In this document: positions 9,766 to 17,821 of the stretch, in pieces
Layout of the letters: each line of letters starts with the position of its first letter
Position numbering within the stretch: the first letter of the stretch is position 1
IMG/VR virus record: IMGVR_UViG_3300018077_000004
Coordinates: 1-36,783 of that record
DNA from: a virus
DNA length: 36,783 bases
Strand: one strand, 5' to 3'
The notes under the pieces: model-generated
Database searches by the model: none
Told to the model about the DNA's origin: nothing
Seen by the model: the letters and a program-made list of their open reading frames with translations, nothing else
Translations under genes and position numbers: made by a program

Positions 9766-10998
9766 ATGGCTACCTCTGCCGAAATCGGCCAGAAGCTGAC
9801 TGACAAGCGTCAGGAGCACGGCGTCTGGCTGGCCCAATACAAGAAGGACGGCGGCTACGACATGCCGACCGATCAGGTGGTCGAGTTCAACACTCGGAAC
9901 GAAGAGCTGACCAAGCTCCAGGCCGAGTACGAGACCGCTCTGAAGGTCGAGAAGTCAGCCGCCGAGAATGAGGCGAAGCTCGGTCCCCAGGGCCGGCTCG
10001 TCAAGGATGCCGACGACCCCGAGACTAAGGACGTGCCCGCCGGCATCTCGACCAAGGCGCAGCTCAATGCTGCGTTCAAGTCGGCGTTTGAGAAGAATGC
10101 GTCTGCTCTTGACGCGATTGCCAAGGGTGGCCGCGGCTCGGTCAGCTTCGACCTGAACATGAGCCTGAAGACTCTGCTCGACACCACTGTCCATGCCCCG
10201 CAGGCGGACCGACTGGGAACCTTCCCATCGGCGCTCTACTACGGGAGCGTGGAAGACCTGTTCATGCATGGCGTCACCGACTCGAAGTCGGTGGACTACT
10301 TCATCCAGACGACCGACACCGACAACGCGGCCGCTGTGGCGGAAGGAGTTGCCCCCACCGATTCGGCGTTCGCCTGGACGCTGACGACCGATCCGGTTGA
10401 GACCGTCTCGACCTGGATTCCGATGACTCACGAGTCGGTGGCCGACAATCCTGGACTCCAGTCCACGGTTGAGGGCATGCTGGCGCTTCGGCTTCAGAAG
10501 AAGTCCGAGAACACAATGCTGGCCGGCAGCGGTGTAACCCCGATCCCGACCGGCGTGTTCATTCGGACCGGCTTTCAGACTCAGGCCAAGGGTGCCGACC
10601 CGGCCTTCGACGCCATCCACAAGGCCATCACCAAGGTGGAGGTCACCGGCGATGCGATCGTCGATGCCGTCACAATCCACCCGACCGACTGGCAGAATCT
10701 GAGGCTGACCCGGACGACCGATGGCGTCTACATTCTCGGCAATCCCGCCGATTCGGCACCGCTGAATCTATGGGGTTTGCCGGTGCGAAAGACGACCGGC
10801 ATCGGTGCCGCCGGCACTGCGGGTGTTGGTGCGTTCCGCACCTTCGCTGAGATCCGCGAGCGCGAAGGCCTGGTGGTCGAAATCTCCACCGAGCATTCGA
10901 CCTTCTTCACCGAGCGCAAGGTCGCGCTTCTGCTGTATCGGCGCTTCGCGGTGGCTGACTATCGGCCCAGCGCGTTCGCGACGATCACCGGCCTGTAA
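9766..10998 (+). CDS. Major capsid protein, HK97 fold
   Basis: 410 residues. The N-terminal about 100 residues are charged coiled coil (delta domain: IGQKLTDKRQEHGVW, EELTKLQAEYETALKVEKS) that is normally removed by the protease. The mature part has the usual P22/HK97 landmarks: GSVEDLFMHGVTDSKSVDY, VAEGVAPTDSAF, ESVADNPGLQSTVEGML, LAGSGVTPIPTG, and the C-terminal HSTFFTERKVALLLYRRFAVADYRPSAF. It builds the icosahedral shell. The RBS (GGAG) and ATG 9766 are clear. No separate scaffold gene is seen. Confidence 0.95.
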   Translation: MATSAEIGQKLTDKRQEHGVWLAQYKKDGGYDMPTDQVVEFNTRNEELTKLQAEYETALKVEKSAAENEAKLGPQGRLVKDADDPETKDVPAGISTKAQLNAAFKSAFEKNASALDAIAKGGRGSVSFDLNMSLKTLLDTTVHAPQADRLGTFPSALYYGSVEDLFMHGVTDSKSVDYFIQTTDTDNAAAVAEGVAPTDSAFAWTLTTDPVETVSTWIPMTHESVADNPGLQSTVEGMLALRLQKKSENTMLAGSGVTPIPTGVFIRTGFQTQAKGADPAFDAIHKAITKVEVTGDAIVDAVTIHPTDWQNLRLTRTTDGVYILGNPADSAPLNLWGLPVRKTTGIGAAGTAGVGAFRTFAEIREREGLVVEISTEHSTFFTERKVALLLYRRFAVADYRPSAFATITGL

Positions 10999-13680: not shown

Positions 13681-13850
13681 ACTTGCTCCGGTTGGTCCTA
13701 CCCAAGCCGCAGGAGTCGCAGTGCTCCCGGTGCGGCCGGCCGCTGCGTGAGCGGTGGCGAAAGCCCTGTCCGACCTGTGGTGATCGTCATCGCACACTCA
13801 TCAGAGGCTTGGACATGACCCGTGCTGCCGCCCAGGATGAGATGGGGTGA
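13677..13850 (+). CDS. Small zinc-ribbon protein
   Basis: 57 residues from GTG 13677 that overlaps the previous stop (GTGA); the stop 13848-13850 overlaps the next GTG. Two Cys pairs, CSRCGRPL and CPTCGDR, about 17 residues apart form a classical zinc ribbon. No partner domain, so the role is unknown. A small structural-operon DNA- or RNA-binding protein is possible. Confidence 0.6.
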   Translation: MNLLRLVLPKPQESQCSRCGRPLRERWRKPCPTCGDRHRTLIRGLDMTRAAAQDEMG

Positions 13851-14416
13851 AACGTCCCCTCGCCGCAGCCATCGGGCTCGCCCTCACGGCGGGCCTTTTG
13901 ATTACCCCGGTGCTGGCCGCCAACCCGAACCGCGATCCGCTGCATCTCAACAAGCACACCGGCGGCATGGGGTATCCCCCGCCCTATGGCCTGACCTACT
14001 GCTACGACGAGGACGACTTCGAGGAGTGGTGGTACCTGGGCTGGATGCAGCCCGGCGAGACATTCACCGCCTCACTGCGCTTCTGCGACGGTCAGGACGC
14101 GGGCGACTACTACGTCCGCGAATCCGACGGCAAGGTCATGTGGATCGACGACGGCAACACGATGTTCTTCCTGTCGGTGAAAGGGAAGAACGCGCACTAC
14201 GCCATCAGCTTCGAGGGGTCCAGCCTGCCCGACGATCCCGACTACCCGCTGTATGCCGCCGAGGTTGGCGACCGGCCCTATGAGCTGTGGCAGTCCTGTC
14301 ATCCCGCGCCGGGTGCGTGGGTCACCTTCACGATCACCTACATCGGAGAGCGCTCCGCCGAGACCTCGCTGCGCTTCGGTTCGACACACTACACGGCAAC
14401 GTCGTGGTGCCCCTAG
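13847..14416 (+). CDS. Secreted protein with Sec signal peptide
   Basis: 189 residues from GTG 13847 (GGGG just upstream, GTGA overlap). The first 25 residues are a classical signal peptide: KRP, a hydrophobic core (LAAAIGLALTAGLLITPVLA) and an A-x-A cleavage site before ANPNR. The mature part is rich in Tyr, Trp and Asp (YCYDEDDFEEWWYLGWM) with four Cys and a beta-sandwich look. A secreted protein amid virion genes is odd: it might be a lysogenic conversion factor, an exclusion protein, or a virion protein exported by mistake of context. Function unknown. Confidence 0.7.
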   Translation: MKRPLAAAIGLALTAGLLITPVLAANPNRDPLHLNKHTGGMGYPPPYGLTYCYDEDDFEEWWYLGWMQPGETFTASLRFCDGQDAGDYYVRESDGKVMWIDDGNTMFFLSVKGKNAHYAISFEGSSLPDDPDYPLYAAEVGDRPYELWQSCHPAPGAWVTFTITYIGERSAETSLRFGSTHYTATSWCP

Positions 14417-14650
14417 ATGGCGAGTTGGGAGCGCGTCGTCACTCAAGACGGCATCGAGACGATCGTCTCGTACCCGCCGTTCGACGGGACCGAGGTCGAG
14501 GCCCGGGCCTGGCTGGATTGGAAGATCGAATCGCACGCTGCTGAGAAGGGCTGGGTCATCGCGAGGGACGGGGATGTGGCGACCATCACGAAGGTCTACA
14601 GCCTCGAGCGCACCAAGCAGCGCGTCATCCTGATCCGGTCGGTGGCCTGA
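14417..14650 (+). CDS. Small hypothetical protein
   Basis: 77 residues. ATG 14417 follows the previous stop directly with no gap, and the stop overlaps ATG 14650 (TGATG). A mixed alpha/beta sequence (WERVVTQDGIETIVSYPPF, WVIARDGDVATITKVYSLE). No family recognised. Coupling on both sides supports translation. Confidence 0.6.
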   Translation: MASWERVVTQDGIETIVSYPPFDGTEVEARAWLDWKIESHAAEKGWVIARDGDVATITKVYSLERTKQRVILIRSVA

Positions 14651-15366
14651 TGGCCGTCAGTCATGCGGGGTCCACTGAATCGCATACCGGCGCGATCGGT
14701 TCGATCAGTGAAGCCTCATTCACTTGGACCGGCCCTGTTGGTGCGCCACCTCATGAGGGCGTGCTGATATTTGTCTTCAATCTGGTTTCGGGGGCGAACA
14801 TCGTTTCTTCGGTTACCTACGGCGCTACGTCTGTCCCGCTGGTTGCCGGTGGTGAGGCGATCGATTCCGCTGGCGAGCCGGGTTGGTGCGGGGCGTATTT
14901 CATCGGCTCAGGATTCCCGACCGGCAGCAGTCAGGCCGTTGTGGTCAACCGCACAAACAACACCGACGAGTTGTATGCCACTTGCACTCTCCTCCAGGCC
15001 CTAGGAGATACGGAGGTCTATACCGCCGGAATAGTTCTTCTTCAGGGCGATGGCACGCTCGCCGAGCAGAGCGTAGACGACGGCTCGCCCGGAACGGATA
15101 GCGAGCGATATGCGGGCACTTTCTCGGGCTTGGCCTCCGTGCCGGGGCCTGGTATCAATACCTCCGCCCTTTTGAGCTTCGATACCGGCCAACAGACGGC
15201 AGCCGTCGTCCGCGAGGCGAACACCGGCCAGGGCAGCCGACTGGTCGGGTTCGCGTCTGGCACCTCTGATGACCGGGCAGCGGTGCATCTCGCGGTCCGT
15301 GAAGCTGCTGCCGCTGCTGAGCGCGTCCCGCGCTTCTCGCCCTACCCGCAAATCCTGGCTCACTGA
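14650..15366 (+). CDS. Beta-rich virion-operon protein
   Basis: 238 residues from ATG 14650. Long stretches of Ser/Thr/Gly with beta-strand pattern (ASFTWTGPVGAPPHEGVLIF, SVTYGATSVPLVAGGEAI, FSGLASVPGPGINTSALLSF) resemble jelly-roll or lectin-like virion domains. Proteins of this kind are often surface decorations or fibres. No motif identifies a ligand. Confidence 0.6.
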   Translation: MAVSHAGSTESHTGAIGSISEASFTWTGPVGAPPHEGVLIFVFNLVSGANIVSSVTYGATSVPLVAGGEAIDSAGEPGWCGAYFIGSGFPTGSSQAVVVNRTNNTDELYATCTLLQALGDTEVYTAGIVLLQGDGTLAEQSVDDGSPGTDSERYAGTFSGLASVPGPGINTSALLSFDTGQQTAAVVREANTGQGSRLVGFASGTSDDRAAVHLAVREAAAAAERVPRFSPYPQILAH

Positions 15367-15882: not shown

Positions 15883-16914
15883 ATGCCCGGCCTGTTCCGA
15901 CGACCCCCCCAACCCCAGCAGCGTCTTCCGAAAGCCGCACCGCCATCAGCGCCGGCACCCATCGAGCGGACGCTGACCGAGGCGGTCACGTCCGCCGATG
16001 CGTGGGCGCGGGTGTTCACCGGCTCACGGACACTCACCGAAGCGGTAGCCCAAGCCGACGCCTGGACCCGGACCGGCACCTTCCTGCGGACCATGACCGA
16101 GAGTGTCACAAGTTCGGATGCCTGGACGCGAGTGGCGACGTTCGCGCGGACCTGGACCGAGGCCGCCACTCAGGCCGACGCCTGGACGCGGGCAGGAACC
16201 TTCAACCGCACGCTGACTGAATCGGTCACCAGCTCCGATGTCTGGATTCGGGTCGGAACGTTCATCCGAACACTCACCGAAGCAGTCACCTCATCCGATG
16301 CCTGGGTCGCCTCCAAGATCATCGCCCGGACGTTCACTGAGGCGGTGATGAGTTCGGACGCATGGACGCGGAGCGGGACGTTCCTCCGCACGTTGACCGA
16401 GGCTGTGAGCCAAGGCGATGTCTGGACTCGCAGCGTGACCCTCGCCCGCTCCTTCACCGATGCCGTAACGAGCGCCGATGCGTGGACGCGAACGGGAACA
16501 TTCATTCGGACCCTGACTGAGGCAGTCGCCCAGAGCGACGCTTGGGTCGCGCTCAAGCTCATTGTGCGGACGTGGACTGAAGCGGTGAACCAGTCCGATG
16601 CCTGGCTCCGGCAGGGCACCTTCCTGCGATCCACGGCTGAGGCTGTCAGCCAATCGGATGTCTGGGTGCGGAGCGTCACCCTCGTTCGAACCCTGATCGA
16701 AACCGTCACCCAATCTGATGCATGGGTCCGAACCGTTACCTTGGTCCGTTCCCTCATCGAGGCGGTGGTGCAGTCAGATGCGTGGGCTGCGATCGTCAGC
16801 GTTACAGGTATTGGCGCCGTCGGCGGCAAGCCCGGTGGTTCGGTGACGACGGTCAGTCAGCCCGGTGGCACCGTCGACCTGCCCATCCCGGGCGGTTCTG
16901 TGAGCGAGGACTGA
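15883..16914 (+). CDS. Repeat protein with fourteen 20-residue repeats
   Basis: 343 residues from ATG 15883. After a Pro-rich leader (28 residues, PGLFRRPPQPQQ) come fourteen tandem 20-residue units with consensus R-T-L-T-E-A-V-T-x-S-D-A-W-T-R-x-G-T-F-x (residues 29-308). The last 35 residues are Gly/Pro/Val-rich (GIGAVGGKPGGSVTT). The invariant DAW/DVW and the T-E-A-V pattern suggest short beta-strands, so a fibrous or solenoid structure is likely. It sits between virion genes and the connector, so a head or tail fibre or decoration role is inferred. DNA repeats are diverged at third positions, so the repeat is kept by protein selection. Confidence 0.75.
   Translation: MPGLFRRPPQPQQRLPKAAPPSAPAPIERTLTEAVTSADAWARVFTGSRTLTEAVAQADAWTRTGTFLRTMTESVTSSDAWTRVATFARTWTEAATQADAWTRAGTFNRTLTESVTSSDVWIRVGTFIRTLTEAVTSSDAWVASKIIARTFTEAVMSSDAWTRSGTFLRTLTEAVSQGDVWTRSVTLARSFTDAVTSADAWTRTGTFIRTLTEAVAQSDAWVALKLIVRTWTEAVNQSDAWLRQGTFLRSTAEAVSQSDVWVRSVTLVRTLIETVTQSDAWVRTVTLVRSLIEAVVQSDAWAAIVSVTGIGAVGGKPGGSVTTVSQPGGTVDLPIPGGSVSED
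15967..16806 (+). repeat. Fourteen 60-bp tandem repeats inside the repeat-protein gene
   Basis: The period is exactly 60 bp with no indel over 840 bp. Units begin at a CGG/CGC/CGA Arg codon. The copies differ mostly at silent positions and in the last five residues, which alternate between x-R-x-G-T-F, R-S-V-T-L and variants such as A-S-K-I-I. Two unit types alternate irregularly. Confidence 0.85.
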
Positions 16915-16915
16915 T

Positions 16916-17821
16916 ATGCCCATCGTGAAGCCGACGATCGAAAACCCAGACGAGCTGCTGGCTTGGCCGGCGGCCGAGGGTCCGATCAACCGGATTCAGA
17001 TCGAGCGCAGCGATACCGGCGGCGGGGCCGGTTACGCCAACATCGGCTCGGCCACAATCCTGGCTGCCACCCGGTCCTACACCTTCTACGATGTGGGCGG
17101 CGACCTAGCTGACTGGTACCGCTGGTACGTCTCGAACGCGGCCAACACCTTCCCCTCCAGCACCAACCGTTCGTACAGCACCGAGCAGCAACCAGGCCCC
17201 GAAGAGGGCGGGTTGCTGTGTAGCTTGTATGACGTCAAGCAGCGCATCGGCGGCGGTGCATTGGCGACCGCCTTGGCGGATGAGGACATTCTCGAACACA
17301 TCCGCCAGGTCAGCACCGACATCCTCGGTCACACCGGGCGTCAATTCGTCCCCGATCCACTCAGCGGGACGAAGACGTACCGCATCCATACCCGAGCTGG
17401 GTACGTCCTTCGAGTGCCGAAAGGCATTCGGTCCATTACCACCCTCGGCATTGCCGTTGACGATCAGCCGACGTCGGGCGGCACATACACGACGGCCACG
17501 GCAACCGATTACTACCTCGATCCACCAGAGTTTGAGCGCGATTATGGCTGGCCGCCGACACGGATCATCTGTCGGCGGAACGCGAGCTCTCGCTTCTATG
17601 ACGCCAGCTACGGTGCGGAGATCACCGGCGCTTTCGGCTGGGTATCTGTGCCTGCGGACATTCAGGGCATCGCTGCTAACGCCTCAGTCCGGCGCTGGCA
17701 GGGGCGTGGCTCGGGCACCTACGCGATCGCCACCGAGGAGTTCGCGTCTCGTCTTCTGCGCTGGACGAGCCCCGAGGAGATGGAGAAGCTCAACTGGTAT
17801 CGCCAGCTGCAGGCGGCGTGA
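16916..17821 (+). CDS. Head-tail connector protein with N-terminal fibronectin-like domain
   Basis: 301 residues. Residues about 1-95 look like an FN3-type domain (INRIQIERSDTGGGAGY, SYTFYDVGG, WYRWYVSNAANTFPSS). Residues from about 105 (CSLYDVKQRIGGGALA, EDILEHIRQVSTDILG, YRIHTRAGYVLRVPKGI, DASYGAEITGAFGW, VRRWQGRGSGTYAI) follow the gp6-like head-tail adaptor pattern. It should attach to the portal and open to the tail. FN3-like additions on virion proteins are thought to aid cell-surface binding. Confidence 0.7.
   Translation: MPIVKPTIENPDELLAWPAAEGPINRIQIERSDTGGGAGYANIGSATILAATRSYTFYDVGGDLADWYRWYVSNAANTFPSSTNRSYSTEQQPGPEEGGLLCSLYDVKQRIGGGALATALADEDILEHIRQVSTDILGHTGRQFVPDPLSGTKTYRIHTRAGYVLRVPKGIRSITTLGIAVDDQPTSGGTYTTATATDYYLDPPEFERDYGWPPTRIICRRNASSRFYDASYGAEITGAFGWVSVPADIQGIAANASVRRWQGRGSGTYAIATEEFASRLLRWTSPEEMEKLNWYRQLQAA

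Follow-up and report, generated by a model that had tools for sequence, protein, structure and literature searches.

A 20-residue repeat protein of an uncultivated phage, its N-terminal clip and its predicted jelly-roll partner: a candidate capsid fibre with an interchangeable shaft

Within a viral record recovered from IMG/VR, a gene placed close to the capsid genes encodes a protein, here P0001, most of which is made of 20-residue units, and the question raised by this locus is what such a protein may be built for and which of its parts carries the information. The window, that is, the whole stretch of DNA analysed, is the entire linear 36,783-base record IMGVR_UViG_3300018077_000004 (features in Table 1). 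An initial annotation had taken the product for a possible new decoration or fibre of the virion. As judged from sequence comparisons, the most conserved and informative element appears to be an N-terminal clip together with the gene of a partner protein, the repeat itself behaving as an interchangeable part.

Table 1. Features of the window considered in this study.
Feature	Position	Strand	Basis or remark
Major capsid protein (MCP)	9766..10998	+	PF05065 1.8e-28; phrog_10
Partner, proposed base protein, 165 aa	15376..15873	+	Homologue linkage; AF2 TNF/C1q-like jelly-roll
Repeat (putative fibre) protein P0001	15883..16914	+	ORF, ATG start, 343 aa
N-terminal clip, aa 1-28, Pro-rich, M-P-G-L-F-R-x-P-P-x-P-Q-x-R	15883..15966	+	Common to phages with different repeats
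Array, fourteen 20-residue units, aa 29-308	15967..16806	+	Unit alignment, shuffle test, AF2 model
Unit 6, variant sub-type, VASKII, K replacing TRxGTF	16267..16326	+	Unit comparison, relatives
Unit 10, variant sub-type, VALKLI replacing TRxGTF	16507..16566	+	Unit comparison
Gly/Pro-rich tail, aa 309-343	16807..16911	+	AF2 pLDDT mostly <50
Downstream neighbour, probable head-tail connector	16916..17821	+	By position only

The array comprises 14 consecutive units with 0 indels, in agreement with the count, register, coordinates and 840-bp length originally given, but the units are not exact copies, their mean identity being 55% at the amino acid level (range 35-75%) and 59% at the nucleotide level. 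Tandem Repeats Finder recovered only 1.9 copies from the DNA (16645-16760). Agreement between units amounts to 68% at codon positions 1 and 2 versus 42% at position 3, and a different codon is used in 550 of 907 same-residue comparisons between units (61%; Met and Trp left out). Thus, the period is kept at the protein level, as had been proposed. The dN/dS ratios point in the same direction in five pairs of relatives (L122/L126, 0.14; L138/L140, 0.24; L125/L041, 0.29; L124/L135, 0.32; and L151/L153, 0.68, the weakest constraint among the pairs), and the ratio between the window and L005 is 0.32 with a dS of 1.46, close to saturation. The window contains 10 matches to a degenerate two-unit pattern, against none in any of 100 dinucleotide-shuffled versions, which places the array beyond chance. 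Given the codon-position pattern, the silent changes, the homologues described below and the dN/dS ratios, the probability that the array is an accident, a sequencing artefact or a non-coding repeat is practically negligible, and no point in favour of such an origin was found.

The Pro-rich head and the Gly/Pro-rich tail flank the array as initially described. Among the D-A-W and T-E-A-V positions that had been called invariant, D11 and W13 deserve the term, being present, like R1, in 14/14 units each, but E5 and V7 are kept in 13/14, and A12, T4 and A6, together with T2, R15 and T18, in 11/14, so that both motifs are near-invariant. A 40-residue structural period, as would arise from antiparallel packing of neighbouring units, was unsupported when even and odd lags were compared, the even ones being higher in 30 arrays out of 48 (p = 0.33, Wilcoxon test).

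The two-unit pattern was found in 84 stretches of viral contigs and in 8 of prokaryote genomes, five of the latter belonging to Nitrosotalea or other Thaumarchaeota and one each to MAGs of Actinomyces, Sedimentisphaerales and Patescibacteria. The family core reads R..D.....D, with R1 in 81%, D/E5 in 96% and D11 in 94% of 1535 units from 79 arrays, and with hydrophobic residues at positions 3, 7, 9 and 13. W13 occurs in 3% of these units, so that D-A-W and T-E-A-V characterise the window and the relative closest to it rather than the repeat in general. The best lag was 20, 40 or 60 in 79 of the 91 ORFs located at 88 of the 92 pattern stretches (L108-L111 were left out), a proportion to which the search pattern itself contributes by favouring a 20-residue lag. 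Homologues are present in related phages at the matching gene position. Arrays of the family run to 31 units (L098), and length differs even between near-identical phages: the fibre genes of L145 and L122 are all but identical, except for a clean 86-residue deletion in L145 of the last units and a stretch beyond. Counted along the array, the first variant K-unit is number 6 in the window, in L005, L061/L087, L066, L125 and L106, and number 3, 7, 9 or 19 in other arrays; it is thus recurrent, not fixed in place. Long R..D.....D-pattern proteins are encoded by Thaumarchaeota, mostly Nitrosotalea (L112, L114, L115, L116 and L119), and a contig of an Actinomyces sp. MAG (L118, 4145-6725) carries a protein of this pattern whose N-terminal region is a different one, which may offer a lead to a host or to an inducible prophage.

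Searching with the repeat thus uncovered a large family in uncultivated phages, but no match in Pfam, NCBIfam or PDB. P0001 itself matched no PDB sequence at E <= 1 and nothing above cut-off in Pfam or NCBIfam, matches in PHROGs were weak, and none of these four databases linked P0001 by sequence to any head fibre or decoration protein that has been characterised. The family phrog_12240, of unknown function, was matched by the relatives L034, L103 and L084 and not by P0001. The repeat proteins of ten relatives gave no convincing Pfam family, weak matches remaining under the curated cut-off in all cases bar one, Ribosomal_S5_C in L055, which was above it but had no single stretch passing alone. 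Among 50,697 INPHARED phage records, neither P0001 (megablast, tblastn) nor the partner (tblastn) found a match, and no cultured member came to light. A direct P0001 search of viral contigs confirmed 0 of 33 candidate stretches, and, out of five stretches found with a tight repeat pattern, those of L003, L004, L006 and L007 were rejected as chance, L005 alone being real.

More informative evidence came from the N terminus. The clip, formed by the first ~20 residues of P0001 (MPGLFRRPPQPQQR), has a conserved core of ~14 residues, M-x-G-L-F-R-x-P-P-x-P-Q-x-R. Its DNA pattern occurred in 34 stretches of viral contigs, 23 of which are ORF starts: 22 open ORFs of 240 aa or more, each of which has tandem repeats (weakly in L137), and one (L146) opens a 105-aa ORF. 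The remaining 11 were taken as chance (no start codon in reach, or a 27-residue ORF). A homologue of the partner gene adjoins 23/23 clip ORFs versus 0/11 chance stretches. A partner scan that was blind to the clip yielded 35 loci, of which 34 could be judged, L159 ending without downstream DNA. The gene downstream starts with the clip in 26 of them according to a fixed regex and with a clip-like sequence, by eye, in 5 (L157, L158, L173, L174 and L177), so that an adjacency like that of base and projection genes in an HFTV1-type turret is found at 31 of 34 partner genes; the three loci without a clip (L178-L180) have the lowest identity among the full-length matches. Twenty of the 35 contigs were new (15 had already been seen), and in 16 of the 19 informative ones among them the clip or a sequence resembling it is present at this start.

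The distances between clips and those between partners are correlated (Mantel r 0.38, 0/2000 permutations, 38 unique pairs), a signal that linkage of neighbouring genes alone, without contact, can also yield. With gene 12378 held constant, the partial r was 0.52 (4/2000, n = 15); controlling for the partner left 0.06 between the clip and gene 12378 (651/2000). The clip regex of the Mantel set was widened after variants had been seen, and its count of 60/65, in which contigs are counted repeatedly, is not independent of the 34-locus count.

What follows the clip is far more variable, at least five unrelated repeat types being recognised by eye behind it: R..D.....D; AAGTG; a 21-residue ADSLATLTEAV type; 21-residue GSGAGxQ / FSGTATETFG types; and a 22-24-residue type, PTATLTLTTFAPT. 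The window and L008 illustrate this exchange, their partners being 87% identical, their clips nearly the same and their downstream genes 51% identical in the best segment. The two fibre proteins show 21% identity overall, and the L008 array, composed of AAGTGTAY-type repeats of 20 residues, is not alignable with that of the window. Because one clip and partner carries such unrelated repeats, the R..D.....D repeat is swappable. Additional domains are inserted as well, since Pfam assigns a lectin-like domain, Laminin_G_3, to the stretch that separates clip from array in L151 (3.1e-15) and L107 (3.3e-20); L041 and L125, with arrays 87% identical, differ by ~200 extra residues between clip and array, present in L041 only.

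The partner is predicted to be almost all beta (AF2 with 21 sequences, pLDDT 86.2, pTM 0.83), and this model is better founded than that of the shaft discussed below. Foldseek retrieved no PDB match for it at E <= 0.001, and the partner profile found only an unrelated match (E 0.24) among PDB sequences. With VIA-align, the matches included the HFTV1 turret (Z 7.9), the KHP40 trimeric cement protein (7.7), the Pam1 capsid protein (7.1), ExsFA/BxpB (7.0-7.1), TNF/C1q proteins and the capsids of small plant viruses (up to 8.4), for which reason the partner is named a jelly-roll protein. The Z scores, from 8.4 to 6.7 over the 50 matches listed, fall in the "common arrangement" range of the tool and are modest and tied, the HFTV1 turret ranking 2 among those 50 and being tied with many jelly-rolls.

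Concerning genome context, portal, protease, terminase, tape measure and MCP were recognised with Pfam/PHROGs, and the genes are ordered as terminase, portal, protease, MCP, unrecognised genes, the pair formed by partner and P0001, and the probable connector. Named relatives of the MCP are remote, the best-listed one having 31.9% identity. The P0001 ORF ends 1 base short of the downstream gene. Of the initial placement between beta-rich virion proteins and the connector, the head-module location near the MCP gene stands, and it is the location expected for a head fibre, but the connector is assigned by position, its product having no family match in Pfam, PHROGs or NCBIfam. Upstream of the pair, different beta-rich proteins of the window (14650-15366) and of L008 (617-1774) end in a near-identical C-terminal peptide, AAAAAERVPRFxxYPQILAH, which in sequence looks like a second common docking tag. 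Another ORF of the virion gene block (13847-14416, +) starts with an apparent signal peptide (KRPLAAAIGLALTAGLLITPVLAA), and the product of L005 4117-4623 likewise looks secreted.

Seen from the connector side, the association is looser. A scan with the downstream gene gave 21 loci, one of them (L014) without upstream DNA to judge. A periodic ORF, its best lag being between 18 and 24 residues, adjoins the connector gene or lies within ~600 bases of it in 14/20; the other six (the three near-copies L011, L012 and L024, plus L015, L016 and L017) have none, so that the fibre is dispensable. Several of the 14 periodic ORFs have no clip and start with another domain, and in L009, L010, L022, L023, L025 and L027 no partner was found and the repeat protein has another N terminus, which makes the plug one anchoring mode of several. 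This slot thus holds a repeat protein in many phages but not in all, and the clip goes with the partner. Repeat types at this position also include one of 22-24 residues upstream of the connector in L025-L028 (LPTAGALVLTGAVPTV), with a highly conserved C-terminal domain behind it (TEWIP..GY..., GAGVAGAGQP.KGA), and one of 18 residues in L019 (6396-7986; ATLSFVG...).

The vicinity of the connector raises the alternative that P0001 is a tail or neck fibre, the partner forming a collar at the head-tail joint from which the fibres would project as whiskers. The pair abuts the probable connector gene in the window, L008, L018, L066, L106, L122, L126 and L137, and in a remote case, the Manatee Spring podovirus MW202742, a partner-like gene followed by a clip-less repeat protein is flanked by genes annotated as "pectate lyase" and "stabilization protein". 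Nevertheless, the pair lies upstream of the connector, that is, on the capsid side, and the nearest virus folds of the partner are capsid cement and turret proteins, although similar scores are reached by a baseplate cup and by a tail fibre tip. On balance, a tail or neck location is regarded as unlikely.

A capsid fibre is the reading preferred here, with a chance put slightly above even: P0001 would be a virion fibre, most likely on the capsid, with the partner as base, the clip as plug and the repeats as interchangeable shaft. A virion role, whether as decoration or fibre, was already envisaged in the initial annotation, and it fits both the head-module location and the constant partner with its modelled jelly-roll. 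According to this proposal, the partner would sit on the capsid in an oligomeric form, probably trimeric or hexameric, and the clip would dock on it as a plug; the fourteen units would form a regular rod, carrying away from the shell the Gly/Pro-rich C-terminus and, in some relatives, a lectin-like domain, and these parts may establish a first, weak contact with cell-surface sugars.

Such an anchor-plug-shaft design fits the parts and has precedents in the Bacillus exosporium (PMC10470788, PMC11952670) and the HFTV1 turret (PMC12494034). In the HFTV1 turret (PDB 8QPG), two consecutively numbered proteins form base and projection, the head trimer of THP gp31 having its N termini inserted into the base hexamer of TBP gp30 on the capsid (PMC12494034). 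The partner model aligns with a turret chain over 104 residues with an rmsd of 3.4, at the modest Z given above; by contrast, the projecting head of HFTV1 consists of a globular, deacetylase-like domain and not of a repeat rod. In the exosporium, a jelly-roll trimer (BxpB/ExsF) grips the conserved, Pro-rich N-terminal peptide of a repeat-shaft protein (BclA/F-Anchor), and the leader peptide is reported to lie in ExsF trimers in the cleft between subunits (PMC10470788 and PMC11952670). The partner model reaches Z 6.9-7.1 with BxpB, ExsFA and 9H3D. Unlike the phage system, this one belongs to a bacterial spore and combines a collagen GXY shaft, absent from P0001 with its 20-residue R..D.....D units, with another leader motif; there is no evidence of homology, and the exosporium leader TIGR03720 was not among the NCBIfam matches of P0001, L066, L140 and L151.

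The shaft of the adenovirus fibre is a triple beta-spiral with a 15-residue repeat, in contrast with the 20-residue unit of P0001. It resembles the proposed arrangement in joining a conserved N-terminal peptide, which binds a capsid base, to a repeat shaft (PMC12796354). Head fibres such as phi29 gp8.5 and the capsid fibres of phage 7-7-1 are described in PMC7150772 and PMC12796354 as flexible, capsid-borne and aiding attachment; P0001 differs from them in having no PDB sequence match, and the proposed fibre base of 7-7-1 is Ig-like (PMC12796354). The repeat type of P0001 is found in phrog_12240 and the R..D.....D proteins of uncultivated phages and Nitrosotalea. Phage head fibres are thus a known kind of structure. 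The clip, the family of the partner and the exchange of short-repeat shafts at a constant clip were not seen in Pfam, PHROGs, NCBIfam or PDB, nor was any of them, or the repeat, described in the papers that searches of the open-access PMC library listed.

The fold of the shaft is less clear. AF2, run on P0001 with 22 natural arrays, predicted strands in each unit (array pLDDT ~86, pTM 0.67), residues 311-342 having a pLDDT below 50. Foldseek found no PDB match for this model at E <= 0.001, parallel beta-helices with Z 14-17, up to 16.9 (1bhe), were among the matches listed by VIA-align, and the top BFVD matches were mostly uncharacterised phage proteins. Of the "beta-solenoid or fibrous stack" of the initial annotation, a solenoid is what this model gives. 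Nevertheless, AF2 is reported (PMC11795689) to model perfect repeats built from random units, some of them 20 residues long, as confident but unrealistic solenoids. Moreover, the hydrophobicity profile of the family has its maximum at 110 degrees instead of 160-180, and helix and strand have the same mean propensity (1.02). Since this profile does not discriminate between strand and helix and AF2 has a documented bias, the model is to be given reduced weight, and the beta-solenoid is uncertain.

The rod could instead be a helical or trimeric shaft, either a supercoiled helix-turn-helix, as the phi29 head fibre shaft reportedly is, or a triple beta-spiral, and P0001 would still be a fibre. The AF2 bias and the hydrophobicity data are compatible with such a shaft, and the clip-bearing L140, with 21-residue repeats, matches coiled-coil models, though below cut-offs (SpiroCoCo_C 8e-13). 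Against it, AF2 produced strands throughout from natural, diverged arrays, the units diverge from one another (55% mean identity) whereas the test of PMC11795689 used perfect repeats, and their Ser/Thr richness, Gly at position 8 and scattered Pro make poor continuous helices. This alternative is a real contender, even if the chances lie somewhat against it. Considerably less probable is an array that lacks a fixed fold and serves as a flexible linker or display surface rich in Ser and Thr: AF2 alone is untrustworthy for such repeats and the tail is predicted to be disordered, but the period is strict over 14 to 31 units, the charges at R1, D5 and D11 are kept across 79 arrays, dN/dS is low and a variant unit recurs, none of which would be anticipated in a linker. 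Whatever their fold, 20-residue arrays offer natural test cases for the solenoid bias of AF2.

Returning to the capsid fibre, the wider proposal is that tailed phages possess undescribed plug-and-socket fibres, in which a conserved jelly-roll socket and a plug of ~14 residues hold unrelated shafts of 20- to 24-residue units and lectin-like domains that are swapped as in tail fibres, a generalisation put forward tentatively and given a little less than an even chance. If true, many nameless repeat proteins of uncultivated phages would gain a common role and a testable anchor, and the diversification of head fibres with a constant attachment would be explained. Both the clip and the small socket protein lend themselves to production and mixing in vitro, which provides a cheap test, and, if they do bind, the clip would serve as a natural peptide tag with which phage heads could be loaded with cargo.
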